Positions 3,483 through 30,030 of a stretch of 43,708 nucleotides of DNA are shown here, piece after piece; the first letter of the stretch is position 1; every line of letters starts with the position of its first letter. Source of the DNA: Gammaproteobacteria bacterium (GTDB lineage Bacteria > Pseudomonadota > Gammaproteobacteria > Eutrophobiales > Eutrophobiaceae); assembly GCA_026710545.1 (NCBI GenBank), contig JAPOQU010000039.1, positions 1 to 43,708 of the forward strand, read 5' to 3'. The notes under the pieces are model-generated. The model saw only the letters and a list, made by a program, of their open reading frames with translations. It was not told the DNA's origin and ran no database searches. Made by a program: the position numbers and the translations under genes.

Positions 3483-3555
3483 ATGCTATGGAGACTGGCT
3501 TCGAATGAAAGTTGCTGCCTGGTTTGTTAATAAAACGGCGCTACATAGTGCATAA

Positions 3556-3582
3556 TATCAATAATTTTGTAAATAATCGTCT
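3556..3582. promoter_or_regulatory. Weak TATCGAT-type dyad, possible operator
   Basis: Between the divergent MoCF-domain and UbiD-type genes, TATCAAT is followed by exactly 13 AT-rich nucleotides and then ATCGTCT. Spacing and half-sites resemble the two better dyads at 15790 and 16964 (6/7 match on the left arm, 4/7 on the right). It lies 24 nt before the UbiD-type start codon. Because the right arm is poor, this may be coincidence in AT-rich sequence. Confidence 0.3.
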
Positions 3583-10601: not shown

Positions 10602-12908
10602 ATGACAACTGAAACGTCCGTGATCGGCAAAAGTTTACCCATGCTGGATGCTTACGAAAAAGTAACCGGCAAGTTGAAATACGCCGGTGACATGCCGGCG
10701 CACCATCGCATGCACTATGCCAAGGTGCTGCGCAGTCCTTATGCACATGCGCGGGTCGTCTCGATCGATACCTCTGCAGCAGAGGCGTTGCCGGGGGTCA
10801 GTGCGGTGATCACCCACCAGGACGATATTACCGGCAAACAAAAGACCTGCGGCACGCCCTGGGTGGATCCCAGTTTCAATTTTCGCGGCCCCATGATTTC
10901 AGAGGAGGTCTGTTTTGTCGGTGACGAGGTTGCAGCCGTATCGGCAGTGGACGAAGACGTCGCCAGGGAAGCCCTGAAATTAATCGAGGTGGAGTACGAG
11001 GAACTGCCGGCGGTGTTCGACCTGGAAGAAGCCATGCGCGCAGACGCGCCGCAGGTCCGTCCCTGGGGCCCCAATACCCTGCCGCCGTCGTTATTCGAGT
11101 GGGGCGACATCGAGCAGGGTTTTGCCGAGGCGGACATGATCCTCGAAAACCGGGTAACCATGGGCAACCAGCAGCATGCGCCGCTGGACCGGAATGCCTG
11201 TATTGCCAGCTGGGAGGGAGACAGGCTCTCTGTCTGGACTTCAACCCAGGCGCTGTTCTGGATGCGGGATGCACTGACTGACTTCTTTGACCTGTCTCCC
11301 AGCAAGGTGCGGGTGTACAGCACGCCCACCGGCGGTTCTTTCGGACTCTGGTGGGGGAACAACTTCATGTTCCTGGCTGCCGCACTGGCGCGCAAGTCGA
11401 AACGCCCGGTACGCCTGGTATTGACGCGGGACGAGGTGCAGACGACCGTGAAGCGGCGCGAACGGCCGCTTATCGACGTGAAGATAGGGCTGACCAAAGA
11501 CGGCCGGATGACCGCCCAGTCATTTCGCCATATCCTGGATAACGGCGCTTACGGCAACAAGTTCGACCCCTACCAGTCCGTCGCGGATATCTATACTACC
11601 GAACATGGCCGGGTGGAGTTTATCGGCGTGGCGACCAACCTGGTGACGGCCGGGTGCATGCGCGGGGTCGGAGACCTGACCCTGGCCTACGCCATTGAAC
11701 AGACTGTGGACATGGCCGCGGAAAAGCTCGATATGGACCCGGTCGAGTTTCACCTGATGAACCACTGGAAGACCGGCGATATCTGCCATACTTCCCAGGA
11801 GGTGGTATTCGCCAAACTGTTGTTCAACAAAAACCCGCAGGTCGAACTGACCAGTTCCGGACTGGCCGAATGTATTACCCGGGGCGCCGATGCCATTGAC
11901 TGGAGCAACAAGTGGAAGGGCTGGGGCAAGCCGTCTTCGGTGGAAGGGCACAAGGTGCGCGGTATCGGCATGGGCATATCAACCCACATCAGCGGTCTGG
12001 CCTTTTTCGGATTTAACGGCATCACCGTCAAGGTCAACCCGGACGGCACCATGGCGTTGACCACGGGTATCGGCCGTATGGGACAGGCCGGCGACACCAC
12101 CCAGGCCATGGTCTGCGCCGAGGTCATGGGGGTGGAACTGGAAGACATTAACGTTATCGACGGCGACTCCGAGGTGTGTGGACATACCATGGTCACCTTC
12201 GGCAGCAACGGGATGCACATGGTTGCCCGCGCCACCAAGGCCGCTGCCGAGCATGCGAGGGAACAATTGCTTGAATACGCGGCTAAACACCTTGAGGCCA
12301 ATGCGGCGGACCTGGATATCAAGGACCGCAGGGTCTTCGTCAAAGGCAGCGAGGAGCGCGGCGTTACCCTCAAGGAACTGATGAGCACGCCTATCTATGA
12401 ATACCTGGCGCCGCCGGAAGTGATAGGCAGCGCTTCGAAGGGGGTAGAGTTCGAGAAGGCGGGCAAAATGATGATGGCGGATTTCGCCGAGGTCGAGATC
12501 GATACCCGCACCGCGCAAATGAAGCTGCTTAAGTTTGTCGCGGTGCATGACAGCGGCACCATCGTCAACCCGGCGGTATGCGAGAACCAGGTCGCCGGCG
12601 GCTACTACCAGTCAATGGGCTTCTCCACCACCGAACACCTGGTATTCGATGATGAGACGGGCGCCATCCTCAACCCGAATTTCATGGATTACAAACTGAT
12701 GGGGCCCCTGGACATGCCCGATCCGGAGATCATGTTCGAAGAAGTATACGATGAACACGGCCCGTTCGGGGCAAAGGGAATCGGCGAAGGCGTTACCTGC
12801 GCGGTGCCGATTGCAATATCGAATGCCGTGTACAACGCCATCGGGGCGCGCATTGACCCACCCATCACACCGGACAAGATACTGCAGGCTCTGAAGCCTA
12901 AAACATGA
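10602..12908 (+). CDS. Molybdenum hydroxylase large subunit, non-CODH type
   Basis: A 768-residue molybdopterin-binding subunit of the xanthine oxidase family. The N-terminal a/b hammerhead domain (about 15-125) precedes the cofactor domains. Visible landmarks are PTGGSFGLWWGN near 242-253, the MRG loop GCMRGVGDL at 351-359, the QAGDT-type segment, and the catalytic-base glutamate Glu729 in GAKGIGEG. The CO dehydrogenase motif AYxCSFR is absent: the aligned position reads CMRGVGD with Gly where the selanylated Cys would be. It should hydroxylate a carbon next to nitrogen in a heterocycle, or an aldehyde or aryl carbon, with water as oxygen source. Its substrate is unknown. An SD-like AGGGG is present. 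The stop overlaps the regulator start (ATGA). Confidence 0.92.
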   Translation: MTTETSVIGKSLPMLDAYEKVTGKLKYAGDMPAHHRMHYAKVLRSPYAHARVVSIDTSAAEALPGVSAVITHQDDITGKQKTCGTPWVDPSFNFRGPMISEEVCFVGDEVAAVSAVDEDVAREALKLIEVEYEELPAVFDLEEAMRADAPQVRPWGPNTLPPSLFEWGDIEQGFAEADMILENRVTMGNQQHAPLDRNACIASWEGDRLSVWTSTQALFWMRDALTDFFDLSPSKVRVYSTPTGGSFGLWWGNNFMFLAAALARKSKRPVRLVLTRDEVQTTVKRRERPLIDVKIGLTKDGRMTAQSFRHILDNGAYGNKFDPYQSVADIYTTEHGRVEFIGVATNLVTAGCMRGVGDLTLAYAIEQTVDMAAEKLDMDPVEFHLMNHWKTGDICHTSQEVVFAKLLFNKNPQVELTSSGLAECITRGADAIDWSNKWKGWGKPSSVEGHKVRGIGMGISTHISGLAFFGFNGITVKVNPDGTMALTTGIGRMGQAGDTTQAMVCAEVMGVELEDINVIDGDSEVCGHTMVTFGSNGMHMVARATKAAAEHAREQLLEYAAKHLEANAADLDIKDRRVFVKGSEERGVTLKELMSTPIYEYLAPPEVIGSASKGVEFEKAGKMMMADFAEVEIDTRTAQMKLLKFVAVHDSGTIVNPAVCENQVAGGYYQSMGFSTTEHLVFDDETGAILNPNFMDYKLMGPLDMPDPEIMFEEVYDEHGPFGAKGIGEGVTCAVPIAISNAVYNAIGARIDPPITPDKILQALKPKT

Positions 12909-13564
12909 GACAAGATATAGACGCTGCTGTAGAACAACTGAAACGGGACATACTCCAGGGACGCTTTGTCCCCGGACAGCGCCTCGTCGAAGTGGACATG
13001 ATGTCCCACCTGGATATAACCCGGGGCAGGGTGCGTGACGTATTTAAACGCCTGCAGGCTGAAGGGATCGTGCAACTGGACAAGAACCGGGGCGCTTCGG
13101 TGAGGAAAGTTTCGCGTGAGGAGGTATACAACATTTTCGAGGTGCTGGAAGAGGTTTCCATCCTGATCATCAGGAAGGTGGGCAGCCGAAGTGAGGATGA
13201 GGAGATGCGCCGGCACCTGGGGGAGTCTCTTGCTGCTGCCCGGAAATTCCATGACCGGTCGGTCAACATCGTCAGGGTGCTCGACTACATGGACGAGAAT
13301 GCCCGGTTCTGGGGGGACCTGGCTGACCTGGCCGGCAACCCGGTGCTGTCGGACATCAGGATACGCCTGCAGGCGCCGTTGTTCAGGCTGGCGATGGAAG
13401 GGTTGACGGTCAGCGGCAACCATGAGCAATGGATCGCCAGGCATGAAGAGATTATTTCCGCCCTGCTCGACAGCAATACCACACAGGCGACGCGTCATGC
13501 GAGGACATCCATGCACGATGTGTGGAAGGCCATCCTGGAGTTGCCGGACAGCGCGTTTGCCTGA
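12905..13564 (+). CDS. GntR-family (FCD-type) transcriptional regulator
   Basis: A 219-residue regulator. An N-terminal winged helix-turn-helix (about 1-75) has the GntR signature LKRDILQGRFVPGQRLVEVDM, then TRGRVRDVFKRLQAEGIV and a wing with RGASVRKVS. The helical FCD-like effector domain follows, with ligand or metal-binding candidates in ENARFWGDL, HEEIISALL and ARTSMHDVW. Its start overlaps the large-subunit stop by 4 nt, so it is co-transcribed with the hydroxylase genes and probably controls them in response to the substrate or a product. The TATCGAT dyads near 15.8 and 17 kb are candidate sites, but the wide half-site spacing is not typical for this family. Confidence 0.9.
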   Translation: MRQDIDAAVEQLKRDILQGRFVPGQRLVEVDMMSHLDITRGRVRDVFKRLQAEGIVQLDKNRGASVRKVSREEVYNIFEVLEEVSILIIRKVGSRSEDEEMRRHLGESLAAARKFHDRSVNIVRVLDYMDENARFWGDLADLAGNPVLSDIRIRLQAPLFRLAMEGLTVSGNHEQWIARHEEIISALLDSNTTQATRHARTSMHDVWKAILELPDSAFA

Positions 13565-14932: not shown

Positions 14933-15760
14933 TCAGTCCACTTCAAGCAGAAAATCGGTAACCAGTTTATTGAAACGCTGATTATGCTCAATCTGGGTCC
15001 AGTGGCCGCAGTTGCCGAATATGTGCAGTTGCGAGTTTTTGATGCATTTGAACAACTGTTCCGAGCAGGACACCGGGATGATGCGGTCATCCCGGCCGTG
15101 GACGATCAGGGTCTCATGTGCGATGTTGCTGACGTCGGCTTCGCTGCTGCAGATTTTCCTGATGCCGTCCTGGCGCGGCGCCGGAAACATGGCCGCGTAA
15201 GACTCCTGTACTCCCGGCCGGAGACTGGCTTCATACCTGAGTTGGGCCAGTTCATCAGTGACCAGTTCACGGTTGTAGGCAAACAGGTCCAGCAATCTGC
15301 GCATATTGTCCAGGGAGGGGGTATAACCCCAGGTCAGGTCCAGACCTTCCGTCAACTCGAATTCAAGTCCGACGCTGCCCATCAGCACCAGGCGCGAGAC
15401 CCGTTCGGGCGCATGAACCGCCAGCGCCACCGCCAGCGATCCGCCAAAGGAATTGCCGACCACGTGGGCCTGTTCGATCTCCATGGCGTCCAGGAAATCC
15501 AGCGCGTGCCTGAGCCAGGTTTCCATCTTGTAACGGATATCGTCAGGCCGTTCGGTAAACCCGAAACCGACGATATCAGGTGCGATCACGCGAAAATTGT
15601 CCGCCAGGTGGGGAATGACCAGGCGCCAGTTCGCCCAGGCGCTGACGCCGGGACCTGATCCGTGCAGGAGCAGCACGGGAGCGCCTTGACCCTGGTCATG
15701 GTAGTTGGTAACGATCCCGCCGGAATTGATTGATAAGCCGATTTCAGGAGAGGTAGTCAT
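14933..15760 (-). CDS. dmpD: 2-hydroxymuconic semialdehyde hydrolase-like a/b hydrolase
   Basis: A 275-residue meta-cleavage-product hydrolase (DmpD/XylF/TodF group). Ser104 in VGNSFGGS, Asp225 in HGRDDRIIP and His253 in GHWTQIEHN form the triad; HGSGPGVSAWANWR is the oxyanion-loop signature of C-C hydrolases. It should cleave 2-hydroxymuconic semialdehyde or a methyl homologue to 2-hydroxypenta-2,4-dienoate plus formate or acetate. The gene is divergent from the esterase gene, across a region with an operator-like dyad, and is not in line with the phenol hydroxylase genes as in classical dmp operons. No dmpE, dmpF or dmpG homologue is in the window, so the pathway stops at the dienoate here. 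The symbol reflects family; substrate range is not proven. Confidence 0.85.
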   Translation of the reverse strand: MTTSPEIGLSINSGGIVTNYHDQGQGAPVLLLHGSGPGVSAWANWRLVIPHLADNFRVIAPDIVGFGFTERPDDIRYKMETWLRHALDFLDAMEIEQAHVVGNSFGGSLAVALAVHAPERVSRLVLMGSVGLEFELTEGLDLTWGYTPSLDNMRRLLDLFAYNRELVTDELAQLRYEASLRPGVQESYAAMFPAPRQDGIRKICSSEADVSNIAHETLIVHGRDDRIIPVSCSEQLFKCIKNSQLHIFGNCGHWTQIEHNQRFNKLVTDFLLEVD

Positions 15761-15789
15761 CTCGGTGTCCTTGTTATGGGTTTTTTTTG

Positions 15790-15813
15790 TCGATTATTAT
15801 ATAAAGAATCGAT
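15790..15813. promoter_or_regulatory. Operator-like dyad A (TCGAT-N13-ATCGA)
   Basis: TCGAT (15790-15794) and ATCGA (15808-15812) are separated by exactly 13 AT-rich nucleotides, half-site centres about 18 bp apart. The same layout and near-identical sequence occur at 16964-16990. The site lies in the 110-nt divergent region between the DmpD-like and esterase genes, overlapping an AT-rich box (TATAAT on the minus strand, 15795-15800). A dimeric repressor or activator serving both directions is the likely reading. Confidence 0.6.
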
Positions 15814-15870
15814 ATTCTATCAGTATTGTTTCCATGTTGGGGAACGCAAACAATCCTGAGGCCGACAGCG

Positions 15871-16599
15871 ATGAACAGCACAGACAAGAAACATTTTGTC
15901 CTGGTACACGGCGCCTGGCACGGCGCCTGGTGCTGGGAGAAGGTAACGCCGCTGATTAGCGAGGCAGGGCACGAAGCCCATGTGCTTGACCTGCCGGGAC
16001 TGGGCAATGATCCCACGCCGATTGCCGATATTACCCTGGATTCCTACGTGAACGCCGTCAGGGATTTAATCCTGACGATAGATGATAATGTGATACTGGT
16101 GGGCCACAGCATGGGCGGATTGGTCATCACCCAGACTGCGGAACTGCTTCCCGACAGGATACGCGCCCTGGGTTACCTGGCTGCCTTCTCTCCTGCGGAC
16201 GGTGAATCCCTGTTCCAGCATGCCATGGCCGATACTGAATCCCACGTCACGCGGTTCAACCAGGTAAACGAGGCAGAGGGGTATTTCACCATTCCGCCCG
16301 ACAGGCTGCCGGACTGTTTCTACGGCTTGTGCAGCGAGGAAGACACCCGTAATGCTATCGCGCGGTTGCGCCCGCAACCGTTGGCCCCGTTACTGCAGAC
16401 CGTCAGCATCACCCCGGAAAATTACGGCCGGGTGCGCCGTTGCTATATCGAATGCACCAAGGACCAGGCCCTGACCTGGCCCATGCAGCAGCAGATGCAG
16501 GAAAAGGCCAGGCTGGATGCGTTGCTCACGCTGGAAACGGACCACTCGCCGTTTTATGCCTGCCCTGAAGACCTGGTTGATTGTTTCATGAGGCTGTAA
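15871..16599 (+). CDS. EstC-like a/b hydrolase (esterase/HNL group)
   Basis: A 242-residue small a/b hydrolase from ATG 15871. It has the HGAWHGAWCW oxyanion block (residues 13-22) and nucleophile Ser80 in GHSMGG; the histidine is in ETDHSPFY near the C-terminus, and an aspartate is available in ECTKDQAL. These features match plant-type salicylate esterases, hydroxynitrile lyases and bacterial EstC/PytH-like esterases rather than C-C hydrolases. It may split an aryl or alkyl ester to give a phenol for the adjoining hydroxylase. The chosen start avoids an upstream extension across the operator-like region and has a GAGG-like SD. The next gene begins 2 nt after its stop. Confidence 0.82.
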   Translation: MNSTDKKHFVLVHGAWHGAWCWEKVTPLISEAGHEAHVLDLPGLGNDPTPIADITLDSYVNAVRDLILTIDDNVILVGHSMGGLVITQTAELLPDRIRALGYLAAFSPADGESLFQHAMADTESHVTRFNQVNEAEGYFTIPPDRLPDCFYGLCSEEDTRNAIARLRPQPLAPLLQTVSITPENYGRVRRCYIECTKDQALTWPMQQQMQEKARLDALLTLETDHSPFYACPEDLVDCFMRL

Positions 16600-16601
16600 G
16601 C

Positions 16602-16958
16602 ATGCAGGTTTTACTCATTCTCTGGGAACCCAATGACAAATGGTCAGCCCTGTCGCGTGATGAACAGGCCGGCTACCTGCGTTCCCTGGACGGCGCCATC
16701 AACGAGGCACGCAGTCACGGAGTGATGACGCTGGGCTGGAGCAGGGTGGACCGGACATTGAACAAGGCGCCGAAAGAGGGTTACGTCGGTGTGTTCGCGA
16801 TGAATTCGGCACAGGACATTCACGAACTAGACAGGAACATTCAACAATCACTTTGGTATGATTACTTTGATTCGGTCAATATCAGTATCAGCCTGGAAGG
16901 CGAGACCGAGCCCGAGCCACACCGGGTTTATGCAAAGCTGCTGGGCATGGAGATTTGA
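16602..16958 (+). CDS. Small conserved-looking protein, DUF6616-like
   Basis: A 118-residue soluble protein from ATG 16602, directly after the esterase stop. Features are VLLILWEPNDKWSALS near the N-terminus, an arginine/alanine helix, a GWSRVDRTL turn, GYVGVFAMNSAQDIHELDRNI, and WYDYFDSVNIS. The pattern of a small b-a-b ferredoxin-like unit with WxDYFDxVN resembles the DUF6616 group, which I recall only loosely. No catalytic motif is evident. The tight spacing on the 5' side and the dmpK gene 67 nt downstream place it in the aromatic module, perhaps as an accessory or isomerase-like protein. Function unknown. Confidence 0.68.
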   Translation: MQVLLILWEPNDKWSALSRDEQAGYLRSLDGAINEARSHGVMTLGWSRVDRTLNKAPKEGYVGVFAMNSAQDIHELDRNIQQSLWYDYFDSVNISISLEGETEPEPHRVYAKLLGMEI

Positions 16959-16994
16959 CGATTTATCGATATTATTTAAAAGAATCGATATTTT
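16955..16994 (+). promoter_or_regulatory. Operator-like dyad B (TATCGAT-N13-ATCGATA) before dmpK
   Basis: TATCGAT (16964-16970) and ATCGATA (16984-16990) form a perfect 7-bp dyad with a 13-nt AT-rich spacer. A TTGACG -35-like hexamer overlaps its left side (16955-16960) and TATTTT (16989-16994) follows. Compared with dyad A, the spacing is identical and the spacer is closely related. The placement straight before dmpK suggests regulation of the phenol hydroxylase operon. There is no sigma54 (-24/-12) promoter here, unlike dmp operons controlled by DmpR. Confidence 0.65.
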
Positions 16995-17025
16995 AATCGC
17001 CCGGAGGGATGACAAACGATAAAAT

Positions 17026-17271
17026 ATGGCTATGATGAAGACGCAAAAACGATTTGTGCGCATCACCAGCAGAGACAGGCCCGGTCTGGTCGAGTTTAAT
17101 TTTTCCATCGGCGACCCGTCTCTCTACCTGGAAATGATTTTGCCGGTAAATGCTTTTGATGAATTCTGCCGGTCGAACCAGGTAACGTATCTCACGGATG
17201 AGCAGGCGGAAGCGGTAGCAAGGCAACAGGAAAAATGGCGCAATGGTGAAACTGGTAATATGTGTGTTTGA
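17026..17271 (+). CDS. dmpK: Phenol hydroxylase assembly subunit DmpK
   Basis: An 81-residue member of the Phenol_hyd_sub family. DmpK is not part of the active oxygenase but helps assemble the hydroxylase by aiding iron insertion. The sequence shows RFVRITSRDRPGLVEFNFSIGDPSLYLEMILPV and a Lys-Trp-Arg-rich tail, all typical, with length a little under CF600 DmpK (about 92). The nearest strong SD (GGAGGG, 17003-17008) is 17 nt before ATG 17026, longer than normal; an in-frame TAA at 17020-17022 excludes an earlier start, and ATG 17032 and 17035 are alternatives. It begins the dmpKLMNOP operon. Confidence 0.9.
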   Translation: MAMMKTQKRFVRITSRDRPGLVEFNFSIGDPSLYLEMILPVNAFDEFCRSNQVTYLTDEQAEAVARQQEKWRNGETGNMCV

Positions 17272-17305: not shown

Positions 17306-18301
17306 ATGTCCATCGATATTAAAACGACAAAAATAGAACCCAGAAGGGTCACCTTCGACAATGTTGCCGAAAAACTGGGCGAGGGCAAGATACCCAGCCG
17401 TTACCAGGAAGTGATGATTGGCGTGCAACAGGAAGAAGTGTTCCATTACCGCCCTACCTGGGACCCTGAGCATGAGATATTCGATGCGGACCGCACAGCC
17501 ATTAACATGCAGGATTTCGACGACCTGGTTGACCCGCGCCAGTATTATTACGGCACCTACGTCATCCAGCGGTCGAAACAGCAGGAGGCTCTTGAGAAAA
17601 ATTTCTCGGTGGTTGAAAAAAGGGGGCTGCTGACCGCCCTTGATGCCGGTCTTACCGAGCGGATCACAAAAATCATCGTCCCTTTCCGCCATGCGGAGTG
17701 GGGCGCCAACACCAATAACCTGTTCATCGCAGCCTACGGTTTCGGCACACCCATGCCCATCGCTGCGGATTTTCAGGGTATGGACAGGCTCGGCAACGCC
17801 CAGTACATCACGCGTATCGGCCTGATATTGTCAAACAACGACCCGGAGATACTCGATCAGGCCAAAGCGGAATGGCTGGATGAGCCGATGTGGCAACCGT
17901 TACGTAAAATGCTGGAGGACAGCTTCGTGCTCAAGGACTGGTTTGAACTGCACCTGCTGCAGAATTTCCTCCTTGACGGCATACTGCACCCGTTATTGTT
18001 CCAGCACCTTGAAGGAGAGGTTGTGAATAACGGCGGAGCGGCGTTTGCCATGGTCACTGAATTCTTTGTGGACTGGTATGGAGAAGCAACCCGCTGGACA
18101 GACCACACACTTAAAACAGCGGCTGGTGAATCCGCAGAGAACAAGGCCTTGCTGACTGAATGGAGGGACAAATGGTTGCCGGAAGTCAAGAACGCCGCGG
18201 CACCGTTGGCGGAATACATCTTTGCGGACCGCAGCGCAGAGGTGATGAAGCAGATCGCCGACAAGCTTGACACCAGGTCGGGAAAAATCGGTTTGGAGTG
18301 A
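17306..18301 (+). CDS. dmpL: Phenol hydroxylase oxygenase beta subunit DmpL
   Basis: A 331-residue helical beta subunit of soluble diiron phenol hydroxylase. It pairs with DmpN in the (abc)2 oxygenase core. Visible family landmarks are the PRRVTFDNVAEKLGEGKIPSRYQEV N-terminal block, PRQYYYGTYVIQRSKQQEALEKN in the middle, PFRHAEWGANTNN, and the GGAAFAMVTEFFVDWYGEATRW segment. The beta subunit lost diiron ligands, so no metal motif is expected. Full family length. It follows dmpK after 34 nt and the stop TGA is 1 nt from the first in-frame ATG of dmpM, suggesting coupling. Confidence 0.93.
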   Translation: MSIDIKTTKIEPRRVTFDNVAEKLGEGKIPSRYQEVMIGVQQEEVFHYRPTWDPEHEIFDADRTAINMQDFDDLVDPRQYYYGTYVIQRSKQQEALEKNFSVVEKRGLLTALDAGLTERITKIIVPFRHAEWGANTNNLFIAAYGFGTPMPIAADFQGMDRLGNAQYITRIGLILSNNDPEILDQAKAEWLDEPMWQPLRKMLEDSFVLKDWFELHLLQNFLLDGILHPLLFQHLEGEVVNNGGAAFAMVTEFFVDWYGEATRWTDHTLKTAAGESAENKALLTEWRDKWLPEVKNAAAPLAEYIFADRSAEVMKQIADKLDTRSGKIGLE

Positions 18302-18302
18302 G

Positions 18303-18578
18303 ATGATGGCCGAAAACGTATTTATCGCATTGCAGAACAACCCGGACGCCCGGCCGATTATAGAGGCCATCGTTGATGATAATCCTGCCGCGGTGGTGAA
18401 TGATTCCCCGGGAATGGTAAAAATAGATTGCCCGAAACGGCTGGTAATAAGACGCCGGACCGTGGAAGAAAAAATCGGTGGGGAATTCAACCTGCAGGAT
18501 ATCCACCTGACGTTGATTTCCCTGGCGGGAAATATCGAAGAAGATGACGATGAATTCGTTTTGCATTGGAACATTTAA
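18303..18578 (+). CDS. dmpM: Phenol hydroxylase regulatory protein DmpM
   Basis: A 91-residue member of the MmoB/DmpM effector family. The small cofactor-less protein binds the oxygenase, tunes access to the diiron site and raises coupling. Family features are VFIALQNNPDARPIIEAIVDDNP, PGMVKIDCPKRLVIRRRTVEE and LISLAGNIEEDDDEFVLHW. Two adjacent ATGs (18303, 18306) compete; both fit. It begins 1 nt after dmpL and is followed by a strong hairpin (18590-18613) before dmpN, which may affect relative expression. Size is as usual for the family. Confidence 0.92.
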   Translation: MMAENVFIALQNNPDARPIIEAIVDDNPAAVVNDSPGMVKIDCPKRLVIRRRTVEEKIGGEFNLQDIHLTLISLAGNIEEDDDEFVLHWNI

Positions 18579-18589
18579 TTCCCCAACAA

Positions 18590-18613
18590 GGGGACGGATT
18601 TGAATCCGTCCCC
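18590..18613. repeat. GGGGAC palindrome between dmpM and dmpN
   Basis: An 11-bp perfect stem, GGGGACGGATT with its complement AATCCGTCCCC, around a 2-nt centre. A relative of the perfect 24-bp palindrome at 38702-38725. It could fold in mRNA between the effector and oxygenase genes and act as a processing or stability element. It lies 8 nt before the AAGAGG SD of dmpN. No T-run follows, so it is not a classical terminator. Confidence 0.85.
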
Positions 18614-18634
18614 AGTGAATAAGAGGCACATGCT

Positions 18635-20161
18635 ATGGCAGACAAACCCAGACGTCTCAACCTGAACCAGAAATACCAGCTCATGACGCGCGGGCTGGAC
18701 TGGGAGACCACCTACCAGTCAATGGATGACGTATTCCCCTATGACAAGTACGAGGGTATCAAGATCAAGGACTGGGACAAGTGGCAGGACCCGTTCCGCC
18801 TGACCATGGACGCCTACTGGAAATACCAGGCTGAAAAGGAAAGAAAGCTCTACGCCATCCTGGACAGCTTCGCCCAGAATAACAGCCAATTGAATATTTC
18901 CGATGCGCGCTACATGAACGCCGTCAAGATCTGGATGCAGGGCGTCACGCCGCTGGAGTACGCCGCGTTCCGGGGTTACGCCATGCTGGGCCGCGGTTTT
19001 CGCGGCGCCGGCGCCCGGGTTGCCTGCCAGTTCCAGTCCATCGACGAAATGCGCCACTACCAGACGCAGATGCATGCGTTCAGCCATTACAACAAATTTT
19101 TCAACGGGTTCCGGCAATATTCAAGAATACGGGACCGGGCCTGGTACCTGTCCATTCCCAAGAGCTACTTTGAGGATGCCGTTACTGCCGGACCATTTGA
19201 ATTGATCACCGCCATATCGTTCTCCTTTGAGTACGTATTGACCAACCTGTTGTTCATGCCGTTCGTGTCCGGCGCAGCCTATAACGGCGACATGGCGACC
19301 ACCACCTTCGGCTTCTCGGCACAATCCGATGAATCACGCCACATGACGCTGGGTCTCGAGGTCATCAAGTTCATGCTGGAGCAGCACGAAGACAACCTGC
19401 CCATTGTCCAGAGATGGCTGGACAAGTGGTTCTGGCGCGGCTACCGCCTGCTTGGCCTGGTCGGCACCATGATGGATTACATGCTGCCCAAGAAAGTGAT
19501 GTCCTGGCGCCAGGCCTGGGAGATATACTGGGAGGAAAGCGGGATGGCTCTGTTCAATGACCTGTCCCGTTACGGCTTGCGGCCGCCCAAATATCATGAG
19601 GTGGCGACCAAGGAGAAATACCGTATCACCCATGAATTCTGGTCCACCATCTACCAGTTTTCCCATGCAACTGCGTTGTATACCTGGATCCCGACCAACG
19701 AAGAACTGGACTGGTTTTCAGCCGAGTACGGTGAACTGTTCGACACCGTGTACCGTCCGCGCTATGAATACTGGGCTGAACTGCACAAAAACGGTGAACG
19801 TTTCTTTCAGAAACGCCTGCCGGTGGTCTGCAACGTCTGCCAGATCCCCATCTTCCACACCATGCCCGATGACCCGTTGATGAACTGTTGCCTGGTAACG
19901 GAATACAAGGGCACCAAGCACCAGATGTGTTCCCAGGGTTGCAAGGATATATTCGACCATGAGCCGGAGAAATACTGCCAGGCTTATATCCCCCCACAAC
20001 AGATTTACCAGGGGAATTGCGGCGGCGCCACGCTGGAGGCGTATAAAGAGTGGTTGCACATCAAGGAAGAGGAAACCGGTGAGTATTACGGCTCGGAAGA
20101 CCACCGGATGTGGGAAGAATGGAAAGCCCAGGCAGCCGGCACGGCCGTAGCGTCGGCCTGA
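18635..20161 (+). CDS. dmpN: Phenol hydroxylase oxygenase alpha subunit DmpN
   Basis: A 508-residue catalytic alpha subunit with the carboxylate-bridged diiron site. Ligands are Glu108, Glu138 and His141 (DEMRHYQ), Glu199 (FEYVL), Glu233 and His236 (DESRHM). A YHS-type C-terminal zinc-like domain (about 405-450, cysteines in VCNVCQIPIF, MNCC and MCSQGC) is typical of DmpN and TouA. It hydroxylates phenol ortho to the hydroxyl to give catechol, with electrons from DmpP. The SD AGAGG lies 8 nt before ATG 18635; ATG 18630 is out of frame. Length matches the family (about 500-517). Confidence 0.95.
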   Translation: MADKPRRLNLNQKYQLMTRGLDWETTYQSMDDVFPYDKYEGIKIKDWDKWQDPFRLTMDAYWKYQAEKERKLYAILDSFAQNNSQLNISDARYMNAVKIWMQGVTPLEYAAFRGYAMLGRGFRGAGARVACQFQSIDEMRHYQTQMHAFSHYNKFFNGFRQYSRIRDRAWYLSIPKSYFEDAVTAGPFELITAISFSFEYVLTNLLFMPFVSGAAYNGDMATTTFGFSAQSDESRHMTLGLEVIKFMLEQHEDNLPIVQRWLDKWFWRGYRLLGLVGTMMDYMLPKKVMSWRQAWEIYWEESGMALFNDLSRYGLRPPKYHEVATKEKYRITHEFWSTIYQFSHATALYTWIPTNEELDWFSAEYGELFDTVYRPRYEYWAELHKNGERFFQKRLPVVCNVCQIPIFHTMPDDPLMNCCLVTEYKGTKHQMCSQGCKDIFDHEPEKYCQAYIPPQQIYQGNCGGATLEAYKEWLHIKEEETGEYYGSEDHRMWEEWKAQAAGTAVASA

Positions 20162-20177
20162 TACGGGGCAGGGCAAG

Positions 20178-20540
20178 ATGGCGGTAAAGTTCGTCGGTGA
20201 CTCGTACGATTTTCCCTGCGCCAACCGGCAGGAAAATTATGGCGATGACATAAACATATACGTGGTCTGGGACCACCACCTGATCTACTGTGCCCCCAAT
20301 GCCTACCGGCTGCCGCCTGGCATGAAATTCAGGGACTTCCTGGAACAGGTGTTTGCGCCGGATTACCCGCAACATCCCGACACAGCCGGCGTCGACTGGG
20401 ACCAGGGCGTCTGGCAACTCGAGAACGAACCCTGGCAGCCGGACCTGGACAAGTCCTTTACCGAGAACGGCATTGCGCATAATTCGTTCATACGGGTCAC
20501 CACCCCCGGCCTGGAAGGCATGCACGGAGTAGGCAATTAG
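20178..20540 (+). CDS. dmpO: Phenol hydroxylase subunit DmpO
   Basis: A 120-residue gamma subunit of the phenol hydroxylase oxygenase (the P4-type small subunit). It shows FVGDSYDFPCANRQENYGDDINIYVVWDHHLIYCAPNAYRLPP and the ENGIAHNSFIRVTTPGLEGM ending expected of the family. It completes the (abc)2 complex with DmpL and DmpN and has no catalytic residues of its own. It is 16 nt after dmpN and 18 nt before dmpP, all co-directional. Length is as in CF600-type systems (about 119). Confidence 0.93.
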   Translation: MAVKFVGDSYDFPCANRQENYGDDINIYVVWDHHLIYCAPNAYRLPPGMKFRDFLEQVFAPDYPQHPDTAGVDWDQGVWQLENEPWQPDLDKSFTENGIAHNSFIRVTTPGLEGMHGVGN

Positions 20541-20558
20541 CGCCACAAGAGTGCCCAG

Positions 20559-21623
20559 GTGTCGTTCCAGGCAACCATTGAACCTCTTGGGGAAACGATA
20601 GAGGTTGAAGAAGACCAGAAGCTGCTGGATGCGGCGCTGCGCGCCGGGATCTGGTTACCGTACGCCTGTAACCACGGGGTATGCGGCACCTGTAAAGTGG
20701 ACGTACTGGAAGGTGATGTTGACCATAACGAAGCTTCGTCGTTTGCACTGATGGATATCGAGCGCGACGAAGGCAAGACCCTGGCCTGTTGCGCAACCCT
20801 GTCCTCGGATATCGTCATAGAAGCGGACATAGAGGAAGAAGAGGACGCACAAAACCTGCCTGTCAGGGACCATGCCGGCACGGTAGTGCGCATGGAGGAC
20901 CTGACCCCTACCGTCAAAGGAATCTGGCTGGAGGTGCCCGGTGACGGTATTGAATTCCAGGCCGGGCAGTACCTGAACCTGGACATTCCCGGCGTTGACG
21001 TGCCCCGGGCCTTTTCCCTGGCCAACCCGCCCTCCGGGAAGAACGTCATCGAGTTGAACGTGCGCCGCGTTGACGGCGGCCAGGCGACCACTTACCTGCA
21101 TGAGCGCCTCGCAATTGGCGATGAATTGAACTTCACCGCGCCGCTGGGCCGGTTTTTCGTGCGTAAATCCTCGCCTGAGCCGATGGTATTCCTGGCCGGC
21201 GGTTCCGGCTTGTCCAGCCCGAAGTCCATGATCCTCGACCTGCTGGAAAATGGCGACGATCGCGCCATCACCCTCGTATACGGCGCCCGCAACCGGGCCG
21301 AACTGTATTATTTCGACCTGTTCAGCGAACTTGCCCGGCAACATGACAATTTTCACTACCTGACGGCATTATCCGAGCCTGCAGACACCGATGACTGGGA
21401 CGGACCGCGCTGTTTTGTACATGAACTGGCGGAAGAACACTTCGGGAAACGTTTTGAAGGCCATAAGGCCTACCTGTGCGGACCTCCTCCCATGGTCGAC
21501 AGTTGCATCACCAGCCTGATGCGGGGGCGGCTGTTCGAAGAGCATATCTTCATGGAAAACTTTTTCACTGCGGCGGACAGTGCGAAACCGGCACGGCGTA
21601 GCGCCCTGTTCAAAAAGTTTTAA
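20559..21623 (+). CDS. dmpP: Phenol hydroxylase reductase DmpP
   Basis: A 354-residue NADH-dependent reductase with an N-terminal plant-type ferredoxin (Cys37, Cys42, Cys45, Cys77; CNHGVCGTC and CCA) fused to FAD and NAD domains. PRAFSLANPP near 148 is the RxxS FAD motif; FLAGGSGLSSPKSM is the NAD-binding glycine loop, and YLCGPPPMVDS near 310 the conserved C-terminal motif. It sends electrons from NADH to the DmpN diiron site. The GTG start at 20559 is used because the family N-terminus begins here and no earlier in-frame ATG fits. Stop at 21621-21623; dmpQ follows 30 nt later across a repeat-like CAGAGGACACAGAGA stretch. Confidence 0.93.
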   Translation: MSFQATIEPLGETIEVEEDQKLLDAALRAGIWLPYACNHGVCGTCKVDVLEGDVDHNEASSFALMDIERDEGKTLACCATLSSDIVIEADIEEEEDAQNLPVRDHAGTVVRMEDLTPTVKGIWLEVPGDGIEFQAGQYLNLDIPGVDVPRAFSLANPPSGKNVIELNVRRVDGGQATTYLHERLAIGDELNFTAPLGRFFVRKSSPEPMVFLAGGSGLSSPKSMILDLLENGDDRAITLVYGARNRAELYYFDLFSELARQHDNFHYLTALSEPADTDDWDGPRCFVHELAEEHFGKRFEGHKAYLCGPPPMVDSCITSLMRGRLFEEHIFMENFFTAADSAKPARRSALFKKF

Positions 21624-21653
21624 AACAAAGCCGCAGAGGACACAGAGATTTCA

Positions 21654-21989
21654 ATGGTGGCTGAAAAATTTACTATTGCCATTGAAGATTCGGATGAGGC
21701 ATTTACCTGCTCATCCGACCGGAACGTTCTCAAGGCCATGGAGCAGCTCGGCAGGAAGGGGATTCCGGTTGGTTGCCGGGGCGGAGGTTGCGGCGTGTGC
21801 CGGGTGCAGGTCGTGGGAGACGGCCGTTACCGGACCGGCAAGATGAGTCGCGAGCAGGTACCGGTGGATGATGAACGGCAGGGCATCTGTCTTGCGTGCA
21901 AGCTGTTTCCCGAGGCTGACCTGCGCTTGAAAGTTCTGGGAAGATGGCAAAAACATTTTATTACAGGCATGAATCCGGAGGCGGCGTAA
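21654..21989 (+). CDS. dmpQ: DmpQ/XylT-like [2Fe-2S] ferredoxin
   Basis: A 111-residue ferredoxin with the plant-type ligand pattern CRGGGCGVCRVQV and a later ICLACKLFPEADL. DmpQ/XylT proteins reactivate catechol 2,3-dioxygenase by reducing its oxidised Fe(III), letting the enzyme survive substituted catechols. The next gene is that dioxygenase, which fits. ATG 21654 or GTG 21657 could start it. The N-terminal region FTIAIEDSDEAFTCSSDRNVLKAM is typical. Between it and the dioxygenase lie 114 nt holding a repeat arm. Confidence 0.85.
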   Translation: MVAEKFTIAIEDSDEAFTCSSDRNVLKAMEQLGRKGIPVGCRGGGCGVCRVQVVGDGRYRTGKMSREQVPVDDERQGICLACKLFPEADLRLKVLGRWQKHFITGMNPEAA

Positions 21990-22103: not shown

Positions 22104-23027
22104 ATGTCATTTACAGGTGTGATGCGACCCGGTCATGCGGCAATCCGTGTGCTGGATATGGATGAATCAGTTACTTACTACACGGAGCGGATGGGTTTGA
22201 TGAAGACTGACGAAGATGACCAGGGCAGGGTTTATCTCAAGGCATGGGATGAACTGGATTGCTTTTCGATCGTGCTCAGGGAAGCGGACTCGCCGGGAAT
22301 TGACTACACGGGCTACAAGACTTTCTCCCGCGCCGACATGGATGAACTGGTCGGAAAACTGGAGGATTACGGTATCGATATAGAATGGATCGCAGAGGGT
22401 GAACTCAACAACTGCGGCGAACGCGCGCGCTTCCAGACCCCGTCCGGTCATTCGTTCGAGCTGTATTCGGAGAAAAAGCAGATTGGCGACGGCCTCGGCC
22501 GCACCAACCCCAACCCCTGGCCGGAAGGCCTGAAAGGCATGCAGGTATACCGCTTCGATCACGTGTTGCTGTACGGACCCAATATTATCGAAACCACGAA
22601 GATCTTTACGGACGTGCTGGGATTTGACCTGACCGAACGGGTGTTGACTCCGGAAGGTGAAATGAATGTCACCTTTGTCTCCTGTTCCAACAAGGCCCAT
22701 GACCTGGCCTTCGTGGAATACCCGGAGCCGAACAAGTTACATCACGTATCGTTCATGTTGATGACCTGGGAGGAGGTGTTGCGGGCTGCCGATCTCATGA
22801 GCATGCATGACATTTCCATCGACATCGGCCCGACCCGTCACGGCATCACCAGGGGGCGCACCATTTACTTCTTCGACCCGTCAGGCAATCGCAATGAGGT
22901 GTTCTGCGGCGATTACACCTGGTATCCCGACCGGGAACCGATTACCTGGACCGCCGAGGAACTCGGCAGGGCCATCTTCTACCACGACAGGCGCTTGAAT
23001 GAGAACTTCCTGACCGTGGTTACCTGA
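22104..23027 (+). CDS. dmpB: Catechol 2,3-dioxygenase (extradiol)
   Basis: A 307-residue two-domain extradiol dioxygenase of the XylE/DmpB (I.2) group. Fe(II) ligands His153, His214 and Glu265 fall at exactly the XylE positions (FDHVLLYG, LHHVSFML, NRNEVFCG); the catalytic His199 and His246 and Tyr255 are also in place. It cleaves catechol next to the hydroxyls to 2-hydroxymuconic semialdehyde. An SD GGAGGAG precedes ATG. With dmpKLMNOP upstream and the DmpD-like hydrolase gene opposite, it forms the phenol meta pathway down to the dienoate. The next 370 nt have no credible gene. Confidence 0.96.
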   Translation: MSFTGVMRPGHAAIRVLDMDESVTYYTERMGLMKTDEDDQGRVYLKAWDELDCFSIVLREADSPGIDYTGYKTFSRADMDELVGKLEDYGIDIEWIAEGELNNCGERARFQTPSGHSFELYSEKKQIGDGLGRTNPNPWPEGLKGMQVYRFDHVLLYGPNIIETTKIFTDVLGFDLTERVLTPEGEMNVTFVSCSNKAHDLAFVEYPEPNKLHHVSFMLMTWEEVLRAADLMSMHDISIDIGPTRHGITRGRTIYFFDPSGNRNEVFCGDYTWYPDREPITWTAEELGRAIFYHDRRLNENFLTVVT

Positions 23028-25045: not shown

Positions 25046-27076
25046 TTAACCCGCTCTGTTGCGCCGGCGGTGTTTACCGGCCCTGGTTGTTGTCTGGACG
25101 GAAACCTGCGCCTGCCTGTCCGGCAGGGTCAAGACGGCCGACAGGTTGGGAAAGGGATCTGTTTTGTGCGGGATGGCCATGGCGTTGACGAAGTAGTCCT
25201 GGAATTTCGGCTCCACCGCGGTTTCGATTTTTTCTATCTGCCTGACGGTGGTTTCTATTTCGTTCCTGGATTCATTGTTCAATAAGGCAATTCTCGCCCC
25301 GGTGCTCGCAGCGTTGCCGACGGATGCGACCTCCGGCAGCGGGCAATCCGGTATCATGCCGAGCGTCATGGCGCGCCTGACGTCAACATGACTGCCGAAT
25401 GCGCCGGCCAGCCGTATCCGGTCCACGGATTTTATCTCCATCCTGTCCATCAACAGTTTCACCCCGGCATACAAGGCTGCCTTGGCGAGTTGTATTTGCC
25501 TGATATCGTTCTGGGTGACGGAAATCGTGGCCGCGCCTTCGTAGAGAATATAGGAGAAAGTACGGCCATCCTGTACGATGCAATCCGCCCTGCCTGCCAG
25601 GGCGCCGCCGATTACGCCGTCGCTGCTCAGGATCCCGCACAGGTACATCTCGGCCACGGCTTCTATGATGCCGGAACCGCATATGCCGGTAACGCCCGTA
25701 TTTGCGATTGACTGTGCAAACTCCGGGTTATCGGACCAGAGGTCGGAGCCGATGACCTTTATCCTTGCCGTCAGGGTATCGGGGTCAATTCGTACCCGCT
25801 CAATGGCGCCGGGAGCGGCGCGCTGGCCGCAGCTTATCTGTGCGCCTTCAAACGCAGGCCCGGTCGGGCTGGAACAGGCCAGCAGGCGTTCCCTGTTCCC
25901 CAGTACAATCTCTGCGTTGGTGCCGATATCAATCAGCAGGCTCACCCCATTGCGGACATGGGGTTGTTCCGAGAGGATGACGGCAGCCGTATCGGCGCCG
26001 ACGTGACCGGCGATGCAGGGGAGAATATAAACGACCCCGCCGGGGTTTATATTGAGATCAAGCTCTGTTGAGCCGGCGTAAACGGAAGCGTCGACTGCCA
26101 GGGCGAAGGGTGCGCTTCCCAGTTCGACGGGACTGATGCCCAGCAGCAGGTGGTGCATGATGGGATTGCCCACCAGCGTGATGCTGACGATATCGTCCGG
26201 GGTAATGCCGGCGGCACTACTGATATTCGAAATGAGTTGATTGATGCCGTCGCGTACCGCCCGGGTCATCTCGCCGGCGCCATCTGGATGCATCATGACG
26301 TAAGACACCCTGCTCATGAGGTCCTCGCCGAAGCGGATCTGCGGGTTCATCATGCCATCCGAAGCAATGACTTCGCCGTTGCTTAAATCGCACAGGTGTG
26401 CGGCGACCGTGGTCGATCCGACGTCCATGGCCAGTCCGTATGCAACGTCCCTGTATCCAGGCCATACTGCGATGATTTCCTTGCCCTGGTGCAGCGCGGC
26501 CGTCACCGACCAGTTGCCCTCCCTCAACGCCTGCTGGATACCGTTCAGAACAGATGAGCGCCAGGTGAGGTCCGCAAACCCCCACTGGCGCCGTAACGCA
26601 TCCATTAACCTGGTCATATCGCTTCCGGCTTCATCCATGTCCGCTTCCCGTACTTCTACGTAATGCAGGTGGACGACAGGATCGAGTGTAATATCCCGCT
26701 GTTCGGCTTCCTTGCGCACAATCTGGCGGTGGATCTGGCTCTCCGGGGGAACGTCGATGAGTACGTCGCCCTGGACGGCAGCGTGGCAACTCAGGCGCCG
26801 TCCGGCCTGCAGCGGCGTTTTCCGCTCCCCGTATTTACGTTCGGTGGCGCTGAAAGGGGAGAGGTGTTCCTTGCTGGAGACAATGCCCAGCTTGCTGAAG
26901 TTGCCCTCGCTGCACAATACCTGGCAACGCCCGCACAGGCCGCGCCCGCCGCAGACGGAGTCTATATCGACACCGAGTTCACGCGCCGCCTCCAGCAACG
27001 GGGTGCCCAGCCGGAACACGCCTCTCCGGCCGGAGGGGGTGAATACAACCTTTGCCGTATTATCGGAATTTTCCAT
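25046..27076 (-). CDS. ASKHA-domain ferredoxin, corrinoid-protein activator
   Basis: A 676-residue RACE/RamA-like protein (DUF4445 ASKHA family). The N-terminal [2Fe-2S] domain has Cys42, Cys48, Cys51 and Cys97 (VCGGRGLCGRC, LSCHA). The rest is an acetate and sugar kinase/Hsc70/actin-fold ATPase with AMDVGSTTVAAHLCD, LLIDIGTNAEIVLG and GICGSGIIEAVAEM. Such proteins reduce inactive Co(II) corrinoid proteins with ATP. A basic tail, GKHRRRNRAG, ends the protein. It is the last gene of the leftward demethylation operon, after 172 nt of repeats. It may act on a corrinoid protein encoded elsewhere, since none is here. Confidence 0.92.
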   Translation of the reverse strand: MENSDNTAKVVFTPSGRRGVFRLGTPLLEAARELGVDIDSVCGGRGLCGRCQVLCSEGNFSKLGIVSSKEHLSPFSATERKYGERKTPLQAGRRLSCHAAVQGDVLIDVPPESQIHRQIVRKEAEQRDITLDPVVHLHYVEVREADMDEAGSDMTRLMDALRRQWGFADLTWRSSVLNGIQQALREGNWSVTAALHQGKEIIAVWPGYRDVAYGLAMDVGSTTVAAHLCDLSNGEVIASDGMMNPQIRFGEDLMSRVSYVMMHPDGAGEMTRAVRDGINQLISNISSAAGITPDDIVSITLVGNPIMHHLLLGISPVELGSAPFALAVDASVYAGSTELDLNINPGGVVYILPCIAGHVGADTAAVILSEQPHVRNGVSLLIDIGTNAEIVLGNRERLLACSSPTGPAFEGAQISCGQRAAPGAIERVRIDPDTLTARIKVIGSDLWSDNPEFAQSIANTGVTGICGSGIIEAVAEMYLCGILSSDGVIGGALAGRADCIVQDGRTFSYILYEGAATISVTQNDIRQIQLAKAALYAGVKLLMDRMEIKSVDRIRLAGAFGSHVDVRRAMTLGMIPDCPLPEVASVGNAASTGARIALLNNESRNEIETTVRQIEKIETAVEPKFQDYFVNAMAIPHKTDPFPNLSAVLTLPDRQAQVSVQTTTRAGKHRRRNRAG

Positions 27077-27095
27077 TATATCCGCAGGTTGCGCT

Positions 27096-27239
27096 GTGAT
27101 TTATCCGCAGATTATGTAGTGATTTATCCGCAGATTACGCAGATGAGCGCAGATAAAATCATTTTTTTAGATATATTACATCTGCGATAATCTGCGTAAT
27201 CTGCGGATAGATCAGCATTTCTGCGTAATCTGCGGATTG
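27096..27239. repeat. ATCCGCAGATTACGCAG direct and inverted repeats
   Basis: ATCCGCAGATTACGCAG at 27126-27142 appears as its reverse complement at 27192-27208 and again at 27221-27237; a degenerate direct copy starts near 27103. These form dyads over most of the 172-nt gap between the methyltransferase and activator genes. Such UCGC-rich units are dispersed non-coding repeats in many proteobacteria. The copy sits inside an operon and may alter the transcript. Confidence 0.88.
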
Positions 27240-27248
27240 AATCTTCTT

Positions 27249-28154
27249 TCAGGCGCGGCGCCGGCGCCGGGGTCTGTCCCTGCGCCCGCCGTTCGCTTCT
27301 GCTGTTGCGCCCGGCTCGCGGTACTGTTTTATCCAGCGGGCGCAATCGGCATCGTGTCCCATCATTACGTCCGCACCCATCACTGCCTGCATCACTTCAC
27401 CGTGCAGGGGGTTGGTGATGGCGGAGGTCATGCCGGCGCCGATGGCCATGGTAAGAAAAGCGCCATTGATGCCGTTCCGGTTCGGTAGTCCGAAACTGAT
27501 ATTGGATGCGCCGCAGGTCGTATTGACTTTCAATTCTCCACGCAGGCGCCTGACAATATGCATGACCTGTCTGCCGGCCTGGTTGATCGCCCCTATGGGC
27601 ATCACCAGCGGATCCACCACCACGTTGCTGTGATGGATGCCGTGGTCCGCGGCCCGTTCAACGATTTTCCTGGCCACTTCAAAACGCACGTCCGGGTCTT
27701 CCGATATGCCTGTCTCGTCGTTGGAGATAGCCACTACCGCCGCGTTGTGCCTGGCAATCAGGGGCAGGACCGATTCCAGCCGCTCCTCTTCGCCGGTAAC
27801 GGAATTGACCAATGCCTTGCCCTGGTACACGTCCAGGCCGGCTTCCAGGGCCGCCACAATGGAAGAATCGATGGACAGTGGGACGTCGGTAACGGATTGC
27901 ACCAGCCTGACAGCTTGCGCCAGGATCGCCGGTTCATCCGCCAGCGGGATACCGGCGTTCACATCCAGCATGTGCGCCCCGGCTTCAACCTGGGCCGCGG
28001 CATCCGCCATAACGCGGCTGTAATCGCCCTGTTTCATCTCTTCCGCGAGGACTTTACGGCCGGTCGGGTTAATGCGCTCGCCGATGATGACGAATGGACG
28101 ATCAAAACCTATGACGACTTCTCTGGTTGCCGAACTGATAACGGTTTCTGTCAT
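27249..28154 (-). CDS. Methyltetrahydrofolate:corrinoid methyltransferase
   Basis: A 301-residue pterin-binding TIM-barrel enzyme of the AcsE/MetH-middle-domain family. Landmarks are IIGERINPTGRKV, AHMLDVNAGIPLADE, NSVTGEEE and NTTCGASNISFGLPNR, the folate-binding loops. It moves a methyl group between THF and a corrinoid protein; with a methylated-amine methyltransferase upstream, the direction is probably from corrinoid to THF. It ends with an arginine-rich tail, GGRRDRPRRRRRA, unusual for this fold. It is 31 nt after MetF in the same operon. A role in methionine synthesis is unlikely because the other MetH modules are missing. Confidence 0.92.
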   Translation of the reverse strand: MTETVISSATREVVIGFDRPFVIIGERINPTGRKVLAEEMKQGDYSRVMADAAAQVEAGAHMLDVNAGIPLADEPAILAQAVRLVQSVTDVPLSIDSSIVAALEAGLDVYQGKALVNSVTGEEERLESVLPLIARHNAAVVAISNDETGISEDPDVRFEVARKIVERAADHGIHHSNVVVDPLVMPIGAINQAGRQVMHIVRRLRGELKVNTTCGASNISFGLPNRNGINGAFLTMAIGAGMTSAITNPLHGEVMQAVMGADVMMGHDADCARWIKQYREPGATAEANGGRRDRPRRRRRA

Positions 28155-28185
28155 TGTCTTTTATCCGGAGCCGGGGCGAATACGC

Positions 28186-29226
28186 TCAGGCCGGCAGGCT
28201 GGCCGGCCTGTTGCCGGGTATTTCAGCCTGGCCCCACCTGTCTATCCCGGGATGCCAAGGTGTCCTGCCCTGCAGGACTCCCGTTGCCTCAACGATCTCT
28301 GCGACCCTGTGCTCCTGCCGGTAGGCCATGATATGAACGCCGTGTACCCCATTGATTTCACGCACCTGGTGAATCATGTCCTTGCAGATATTGACGCCTT
28401 CACCGGCCTGGTCGCTGGCGCCCCGAAGACGTTTGATTACCGTATCCGGTATATGTACGCCGGCAACATGGGTGCGTATCCATTCCGCCGAGCGGGCTGA
28501 AGCCAGGGGTCCCACGCCGGCCAGGATAAATACCTTGTCATGCAGGCCAAGGTCACGGACCCGTTCCATGTACTGCTTGAACATGTCTATGTCAAAGCAA
28601 TACTGGGTCTGGATAAACTGGGCGCCGGCCTTGATTTTCCGCGCCAGGCGTAACGGACGAAAATCATGCGGTGCGGCAAACGGATTGGCCGCGGCGCCCA
28701 GGAATACCTGTGGCGGACTGGTAATCCTGCGGCCGCTGAGAAAGCGGCTGTCATCACGCATGCCGCGCAGCATCTCCAACGCACTCATGCAATCCAGGTC
28801 GAATACCGGTTTTGCCTGGGGATGGTCCCCCGACTGTACGCCGTCACCCGTGAGACAGAGTATGTTTGCCACACCCATTGCCGACGCTCCCAATACGTCC
28901 CCTTGTATGGCTATGCGGTTCCTGTCCCGGCAGGAGACCTGCATGATCATCGCGTAGCCGCGGTGGGTCAGCAGGGAGCACATGGCGACACTGGACATAT
29001 GGCAATTTGCGCCCGAACCATCCGTCGCGTTGATGGCGTCCACGTATCCGTCGAACAGGGCGGCGCGTTCGTATACTTCTGCCGGATCGGCCGAATCCGG
29101 GGGCGCGATTTCAGTTGTGACTGCAAACCCGCCCGCGCGTAATACCCGCTCCAGGCGGCCCGGCGATACGTGCCCCGGGAGTATTGGCAGGTTTTCCCCT
29201 GCTATGGGTTCATCGTCGAAGTACAT
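28186..29226 (-). CDS. metF: Methylenetetrahydrofolate reductase, MetF-type
   Basis: A 346-residue MTHFR with FAD-dependent TIM barrel features: EIAPPDSADP (pterin-binding Glu), VDAINATDGSGA, MQVSCRDRNR, ILCLTGDGV, and FIQTQYCFD. It interconverts methylene-THF and methyl-THF; here it probably oxidises methyl-THF made by demethylation. Unlike E. coli MetF it is encoded beside a separate MetV-like protein, the arrangement seen in bacterial MetFV reductases. The start ATG (29224-29226) is 2 nt after the MetV stop on this strand. A second housekeeping MetF elsewhere is likely but not visible. Confidence 0.92.
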   Translation of the reverse strand: MYFDDEPIAGENLPILPGHVSPGRLERVLRAGGFAVTTEIAPPDSADPAEVYERAALFDGYVDAINATDGSGANCHMSSVAMCSLLTHRGYAMIMQVSCRDRNRIAIQGDVLGASAMGVANILCLTGDGVQSGDHPQAKPVFDLDCMSALEMLRGMRDDSRFLSGRRITSPPQVFLGAAANPFAAPHDFRPLRLARKIKAGAQFIQTQYCFDIDMFKQYMERVRDLGLHDKVFILAGVGPLASARSAEWIRTHVAGVHIPDTVIKRLRGASDQAGEGVNICKDMIHQVREINGVHGVHIMAYRQEHRVAEIVEATGVLQGRTPWHPGIDRWGQAEIPGNRPASLPA

Positions 29227-29228
29227 GT

Positions 29229-29708: not shown

Positions 29709-29715
29709 TCCTGGT

Positions 29716-30018: not shown

Positions 30019-30030
30019 AGGGATGCCCGC

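Follow-up and report, generated by a model that had tools for sequence, protein, structure and literature searches.

Two paired sites in a phenol degradation locus of an uncultured gammaproteobacterium are probable operators of an AphS/BphS-type GntR repressor encoded elsewhere in the genome

The window, a stretch of 43,708 nucleotides from a Gammaproteobacteria bacterium of the Eutrophobiaceae (contig JAPOQU010000039.1 of assembly GCA_026710545.1), carries genes for a meta-cleavage hydrolase, an esterase, a multicomponent phenol hydroxylase and a catechol 2,3-dioxygenase. Its genome is designated G000, and its relatives carry the numbers from G001 upwards. The features that surround the two sites under study are as follows:

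12905 to 13564, plus strand: gene of a GntR/FCD regulator, rejected below as binder of the sites
14933 to 15760, minus strand: gene of a DmpD/HsaD-like meta-cleavage hydrolase, divergent from the esterase gene (Pfam; NCBIfam below the cut-offs)
15785 to 15798, no strand: AphS-type box 1a, with a degenerate outer arm and the core TCGAT at 15790 to 15794
15804 to 15817, no strand: AphS-type box 1b, AAGAATCGATATTC; G001 and G006 retain this pair in front of the esterase gene
15871 to 16599, plus strand: gene of an alpha/beta hydrolase (esterase) behind operator pair 1 (Pfam; start chosen by comparison with G006)
16581 to 16958, plus strand: DUF6616 gene between the esterase gene and dmpK (Pfam)
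16961 to 16974, no strand: AphS-type box 2a, ATTTATCGATATTA
16980 to 16993, no strand: AphS-type box 2b, AAGAATCGATATTT, 19 bp from box 2a
17026 to 17271, plus strand: dmpK, assembly subunit of phenol hydroxylase, the first gene behind pair 2 (PF06099)
17306 to 21989, plus strand: dmpLMNOP and a dmpQ-like ferredoxin gene, multicomponent phenol hydroxylase (Pfam)
22104 to 23027, plus strand: catechol 2,3-dioxygenase gene (TIGR03211, above its cut-off)

An open reading frame of eight codons (ATGACAAAC...TGA) at 17009-17035 ends with a stop codon that overlaps the start region of dmpK. Similar eight-codon frames precede dmpK in G001 and G006, none was seen in G002 and G004, and both a leader and a chance occurrence are possible. 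The genes at 25046-31572 encode a RACo-type reactivase, MTHFR, a pterin-binding protein and an MTTB-family methyltransferase, which suggests corrinoid-dependent demethylation.

The original prediction had described two matching motifs in promoter positions, and both were recovered exactly: the core TCGAT-N13-ATCGA at 15790-15812 (TCGATTATTATATAAAGAATCGA) and the longer TATCGAT-N13-ATCGATA at 16964-16990 (TATCGATATTATTTAAAAGAATCGATA). The core is present twice in the window, compared with 0.00 occurrences expected from 100 dinucleotide shuffles. The first site lies between the DmpD-like hydrolase gene, whose start codon on the minus strand ends at 15760, and the esterase gene on the plus strand with its probable ATG at 15871; the second site is followed 35 bp downstream by the ATG of dmpK (17026). 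Instead of a dyad around a 13-bp spacer, each site is better taken as a pair of palindromes, AwATATCGATATwT, each about 14 bp long and with their centres 19 bp apart. Since a third, weaker box follows after another 19 bp in G002 (C109:1278) and G004 (C1:1065299), the tandem-box description replaces that of a plain dyad. Readings of the 19-bp repeat as a direct repeat of the AraC/XylS kind or as a LysR motif of the form T-N11-A were dropped, because the palindromic box matches the published operator of GntR proteins and is linked to a GntR gene.

AphS is a phenol and BphS a biphenyl repressor, and both are GntR/FCD proteins. A survey of these regulators (PMC6449761) gives their operator as the palindrome AwATATCGATATwT, refined to AAATmTCGAkATTT and usually present in several copies, and the gel-shift consensus of AphS is TATCGTAT (PMC3063778). 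The same palindrome is present in the window: boxes 2a and 2b agree with it at 12/14 positions and box 1b at 11/14, box 1a is weaker, and other boxes in the genus reach 13/14.

Pattern and model searches of the whole genome (4.43 Mb in 129 contigs) located TATCGAT-N13-ATCGATA, with at most one mismatch, at six places, compared with none for the reversed control pattern:

C39:15788, in the window: before the esterase gene
C39:16964, in the window: before dmpK
C45:106682: 17 bp upstream of a gene with a TonB plug domain; SnoaL/CDGSH and Rieske oxygenase genes come next
C114:51780: flanked on one side by a GST-HbpS-aldehyde dehydrogenase operon and on the other by a GntR/FCD gene, after which a TonB receptor gene follows
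C10:30255: between a MarR gene and the gene of an HsaA-like protein with the acyl-CoA dehydrogenase fold, probably a flavin monooxygenase
C31:9655: 24 bp before the gene of a VanA-like Rieske oxygenase

All six pairs have AT-rich spacers, lie upstream of genes and precede genes of aromatic catabolism, uptake or regulation; a motif common at random genome positions, the objection that had been foreseen, is therefore not what is found. The occurrence of several boxes before aromatic-catabolism genes and the regulator's own gene agrees with the operator definition of the survey (PMC6449761). The loose core TCGAT-N13-ATCGA occurs 11 times in the genome, and several of these occurrences are G+C-rich and probably due to chance. 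Among the 28 matches of ATCGAT-Nk-ATCGAT with k from 3 to 33, five have k = 13, four of which belong to the six sites. The predicted regulon, with six sites spread over five genomic places, would be larger than the window shows. The TonB-receptor gene behind the exact pair on C45 (L007:5227-6015) encodes a plug domain only (262 aa), and a short remnant lies behind it in a different frame; the gene appears truncated.

The sites are conserved among close relatives. DmpN is present with at least 88% identity in five other members of the genus and one family relative, and with 63% in another relative. G001, G002, G004 and G006 retain the pair in front of dmpK, which makes it present in all five genus members in which this region is readable, the corresponding stretch of G003 consisting of N. 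The esterase pair is retained in G001 and G006 and missing in G004, while its region is not fully readable in G002 and G003. A symporter-like gene has its place between the DmpD-like and the esterase gene in G001 and G006 (L032:3400-4960, L133:2373-3617), and the persistence of the pair despite this intervening frame indicates that the operator goes with the esterase. The pair between the GntR gene and the GST operon is conserved in G001, G002 and G004, with a weaker version in G003. Across 53 genomes of the family, the exact pair is found in five of seven genus members and in one of 46 others, where it lies inside a large open reading frame. A sequence-only site model (R1), built from 15 sites, retrieved additional sites, which in G001, G003 and G004 lie immediately upstream of the orthologues of the C31 Rieske gene (84-89% identical). 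None of these sites had been among the 15 used for building, and their recovery is the strongest independent check. The model also has a weak match (E about 0.02) at 3550-3579 of the window, upstream of a UbiD-like decarboxylase gene at 3607, which could represent either a degenerate box or a chance match.

The GntR gene on contig C114 (G000:C114:51904-52596), which has an operator pair of its own next to it, encodes a protein of 231 aa with the domains PF00392 (GntR) and PF07729 (FCD). It is linked to the pair in G000, G001, G002 and G004, and to a weaker one in G003. Homologues with 50-63% identity are found near phenol hydroxylase operons of G014, gammaproteobacterial clam symbionts, Nevskia, Acetobacteraceae and others. 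The protein is 44% identical to the GntR protein that heads the bph operon of the Polaromonas CJ2 plasmid pPNAP01 (BphS; PMC6449761 names BphS of Polaromonas CJ2) and 49% identical to that of a canonical aphRS locus of Ideonella, which comprises a sigma-54 activator, a GntR and a phenol hydroxylase. In the regulator tree, whose rows are without the sequences of AphS TA441 and BphS KKS102, it groups with Polaromonas BphS, the Ideonella aphRS protein and GntR proteins near dmp operons; it combines the GntR and FCD domains with a position among AphS/BphS homologues. The regulator is present in G000-G004 and G014, with a partial 42% match in G031. Regulator, dmpN and pair were all not found in G005; in G006 the pairs are present and the GntR gene was not detected in an assembly that is 77% complete. 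Very probably, this AphS/BphS-type GntR/FCD repressor is the protein for which the two sites in the window, on a different contig, serve as paired operators. The proposal that a single regulator is common to the esterase and phenol hydroxylase units is supported, as is the placement of the operators in the promoters.

The box spacing recurs outside the genus. A TCGA-N15-TCGA pair, corresponding to the 19-bp step, precedes 12 of 17 AphS homologues at a distance of no more than 500 nt, whereas shuffles average 0.1 and do not exceed 2; because five genus orthologues and two close relatives are among the twelve, the independent number is about seven. The step is also found at Sphingobium AntQ-1 and in Paracoccus. 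It was not seen at two aphRS loci (Ideonella, Achromobacter), in Tistrella or in Rhizobium, and its absence from the two canonical aphRS loci examined documents that the doublet is not universal in the AphS/BphS family. On a plasmid of Paracoccus zhejiangensis, an intergenic region (L188, 3259-3471) flanked by FAD monooxygenase and AphS-like genes contains several CGA cores at 19-bp steps.

At the genus sites, the 19-bp step places a -35-like TCGATA and a -10-like TATWWT 17 bp apart. TCGATA agrees with TTGACA at 4/6 positions, and some sites have TCGATT with 3/6. A perfect TATAAT occupies the -10-like position in three of four GST promoters; the -10-like hexamers of the window are weak (TATTTT, TATTCT), and the promoter hexamers are poor at some other sites. 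A general promoter scan did not list the dmpK promoter. Matches to the -10 element amount to 65/90 in the direction of the genes versus 53/90 in the opposite direction, and part of the promoter fit comes free because the box itself is AT-rich. The position of two boxes over -35 and -10 suggests promoter occlusion, by analogy with BphS of KKS102 (PMC11448139).

In many bacteria the dmp enzyme operon is controlled by sigma-54-dependent activation through DmpR, XylR or MopR. A profile search of whole genomes found no XylR_N domain (PF06505) in G000, G001, G002, G004, G005 and G006; the same search was positive in G003, G014 and G034. The complete XylR_N genes of G003 and G014 do not lie beside dmp, and that of G003 adjoins an unrelated gene. 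The pattern TGGCA-N6-TTGCW, with at most one mismatch, has three matches in the window and none near dmpK, and a sigma-54 promoter of dmpK was dropped on these grounds. The absence of both DmpR/XylR and a -24/-12 promoter had been noticed from the outset, together with the conclusion that control differs from classical dmp operons, and both statements stand. A likeness to the classical systems is seen in the family relative G014, where a second gene of this kind, that of a DmpR/MobR-like sigma-54 activator cut by the contig end (G014:C273, L036:2-1033), directly precedes the esterase-dmpK operon; an AphS homologue is located downstream of that operon. According to the survey, Betaproteobacteria with AphS always have AphR (PMC6449761). 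Such dual control by AphS and AphR, usually from an aphRS operon, was not found here, and the wiring thus represents a variant.

A possible reading, though less likely than not, is that the phenol hydroxylase operon is under the unlinked AphS-type repressor alone, with sigma-70 promoters whose -35 and -10 regions are covered by boxes. It is also possible, if somewhat unlikely, that the AphS-type protein binds the boxes and caps the action of an activator from a different family, such as one of the AraC/XylS or LysR type, instead of acting by simple occlusion. The constant company of AphR in Betaproteobacteria and the additional action of AphT, BenR or PhcT (PMC6449761, PMC3063778) speak for such a partner, as do the imperfect predicted core promoters. 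Against it stand the missing XylR_N domain in G000, G001, G002 and G004, the missing -24/-12 promoter near dmpK and the action of BphS as a repressor on pE (PMC11448139).

Two other proteins might bind the pairs in place of the C114 regulator. The MarR-family protein beside the C10 pair (L005:4694-5185) is encoded divergently from the HsaA-like gene with the pair between them. A divergent gene with an intervening operator is the arrangement typical of autoregulating MarR proteins. Nevertheless, this candidate is very unlikely: it has no match in the other loci compared, among them four sister loci in which the pair adjoins the GntR gene, the box is identical with the operator published for the GntR group, and the pair is linked to the GntR gene in five genus members. 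Even slightly less probable is the GntR/FCD protein of the window, the one that the original prediction had chosen for binding assays. Its gene is only about 2.2 kb away from the sites, and its G001 orthologue is also near the DmpD-like gene, but the tree places it on a very long branch among unrelated rows, remote from the AphS/BphS clade, with at most 28% identity to any row. Moreover, the gene lacks a preceding pair and directly follows a molybdenum-hydroxylase gene cluster, which it more likely controls. It was rejected as the regulator; the AphS/BphS homologue is the other GntR/FCD protein, encoded on C114. A resemblance of the two short, AT-rich sites by chance or recent duplication is practically negligible given zero expected occurrences in the window, six pairs versus none for the control in the genome, and their retention at orthologous promoters although the neighbouring sequence diverged.

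The reading as AphS/BphS-type operators is based on computed sites, their conservation, the genes they precede, and the kinship and linkage of the regulator to its own site; that the repressor binds the boxes directly and occludes the promoter is what we infer, as are the inducer and the sign of control. Each of the two adjacent boxes probably takes one repressor dimer. Without substrate, two dimers would lie over the -35-like TCGATA and the -10-like TATWWT and block the sigma-70 promoter. BphS of KKS102 represses the promoter pE via operators that overlap the start site and is relieved by the ring-cleavage product HOPDA (PMC11448139); likewise, a pathway metabolite, most likely a ring-cleavage product, would release the repressor. 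The esterase gene, the operon from dmpK to the catechol 2,3-dioxygenase gene, the other pair-bearing catabolic genes and the repressor gene itself would then be switched on.

The regulons of AphS in Comamonas testosteroni TA441 and other Betaproteobacteria (PMC6449761, PMC3063778) share with the present system a GntR/FCD protein, several ATATCGATAT-type boxes before phenol hydroxylase genes and the regulator's own gene, and phenol hydroxylase plus catechol 2,3-dioxygenase as target. In contrast to them, neither an AphR/XylR-type partner nor a -24/-12 promoter was found here, the regulator gene lies on another contig beside the GST-HbpS-aldehyde dehydrogenase operon, the boxes form a 19-bp doublet, and Rieske oxygenases and a TonB receptor gene belong to the predicted regulon. 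BphS of Acidovorax sp. KKS102 and the Tn4371 family (PMC11448139, PMC10282184) is likewise a GntR/FCD repressor with several boxes overlapping a catabolic promoter and is related to the C114 protein, to judge by the 44% identity of Polaromonas BphS; its target is one bph operon, whereas phenol hydroxylase and other genes at five genome places are concerned here.

The sites belong to a known operator family, and their wiring is a variant of some evolutionary interest. The analysis assigns a predicted regulator and regulon to phenol degradation in an uncultured genus of Gammaproteobacteria from sequence alone, and it indicates AphS-type control without the sigma-54 activator that is its constant partner in the Betaproteobacteria of the survey (PMC6449761). 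The 17-bp promoter spacing provides a testable geometric reason for the fixed 19-bp spacing of the boxes, which is common to several AphS/BphS homologues in other Proteobacteria. If control by the repressor alone were true, the loss of the sigma-54 activator in the genus would have made a formerly local brake the switch for aromatic catabolism across the whole genome, and a general rule might follow, according to which 19-bp doublets mark repressor-only promoters and single boxes mark promoters shared with AphR.
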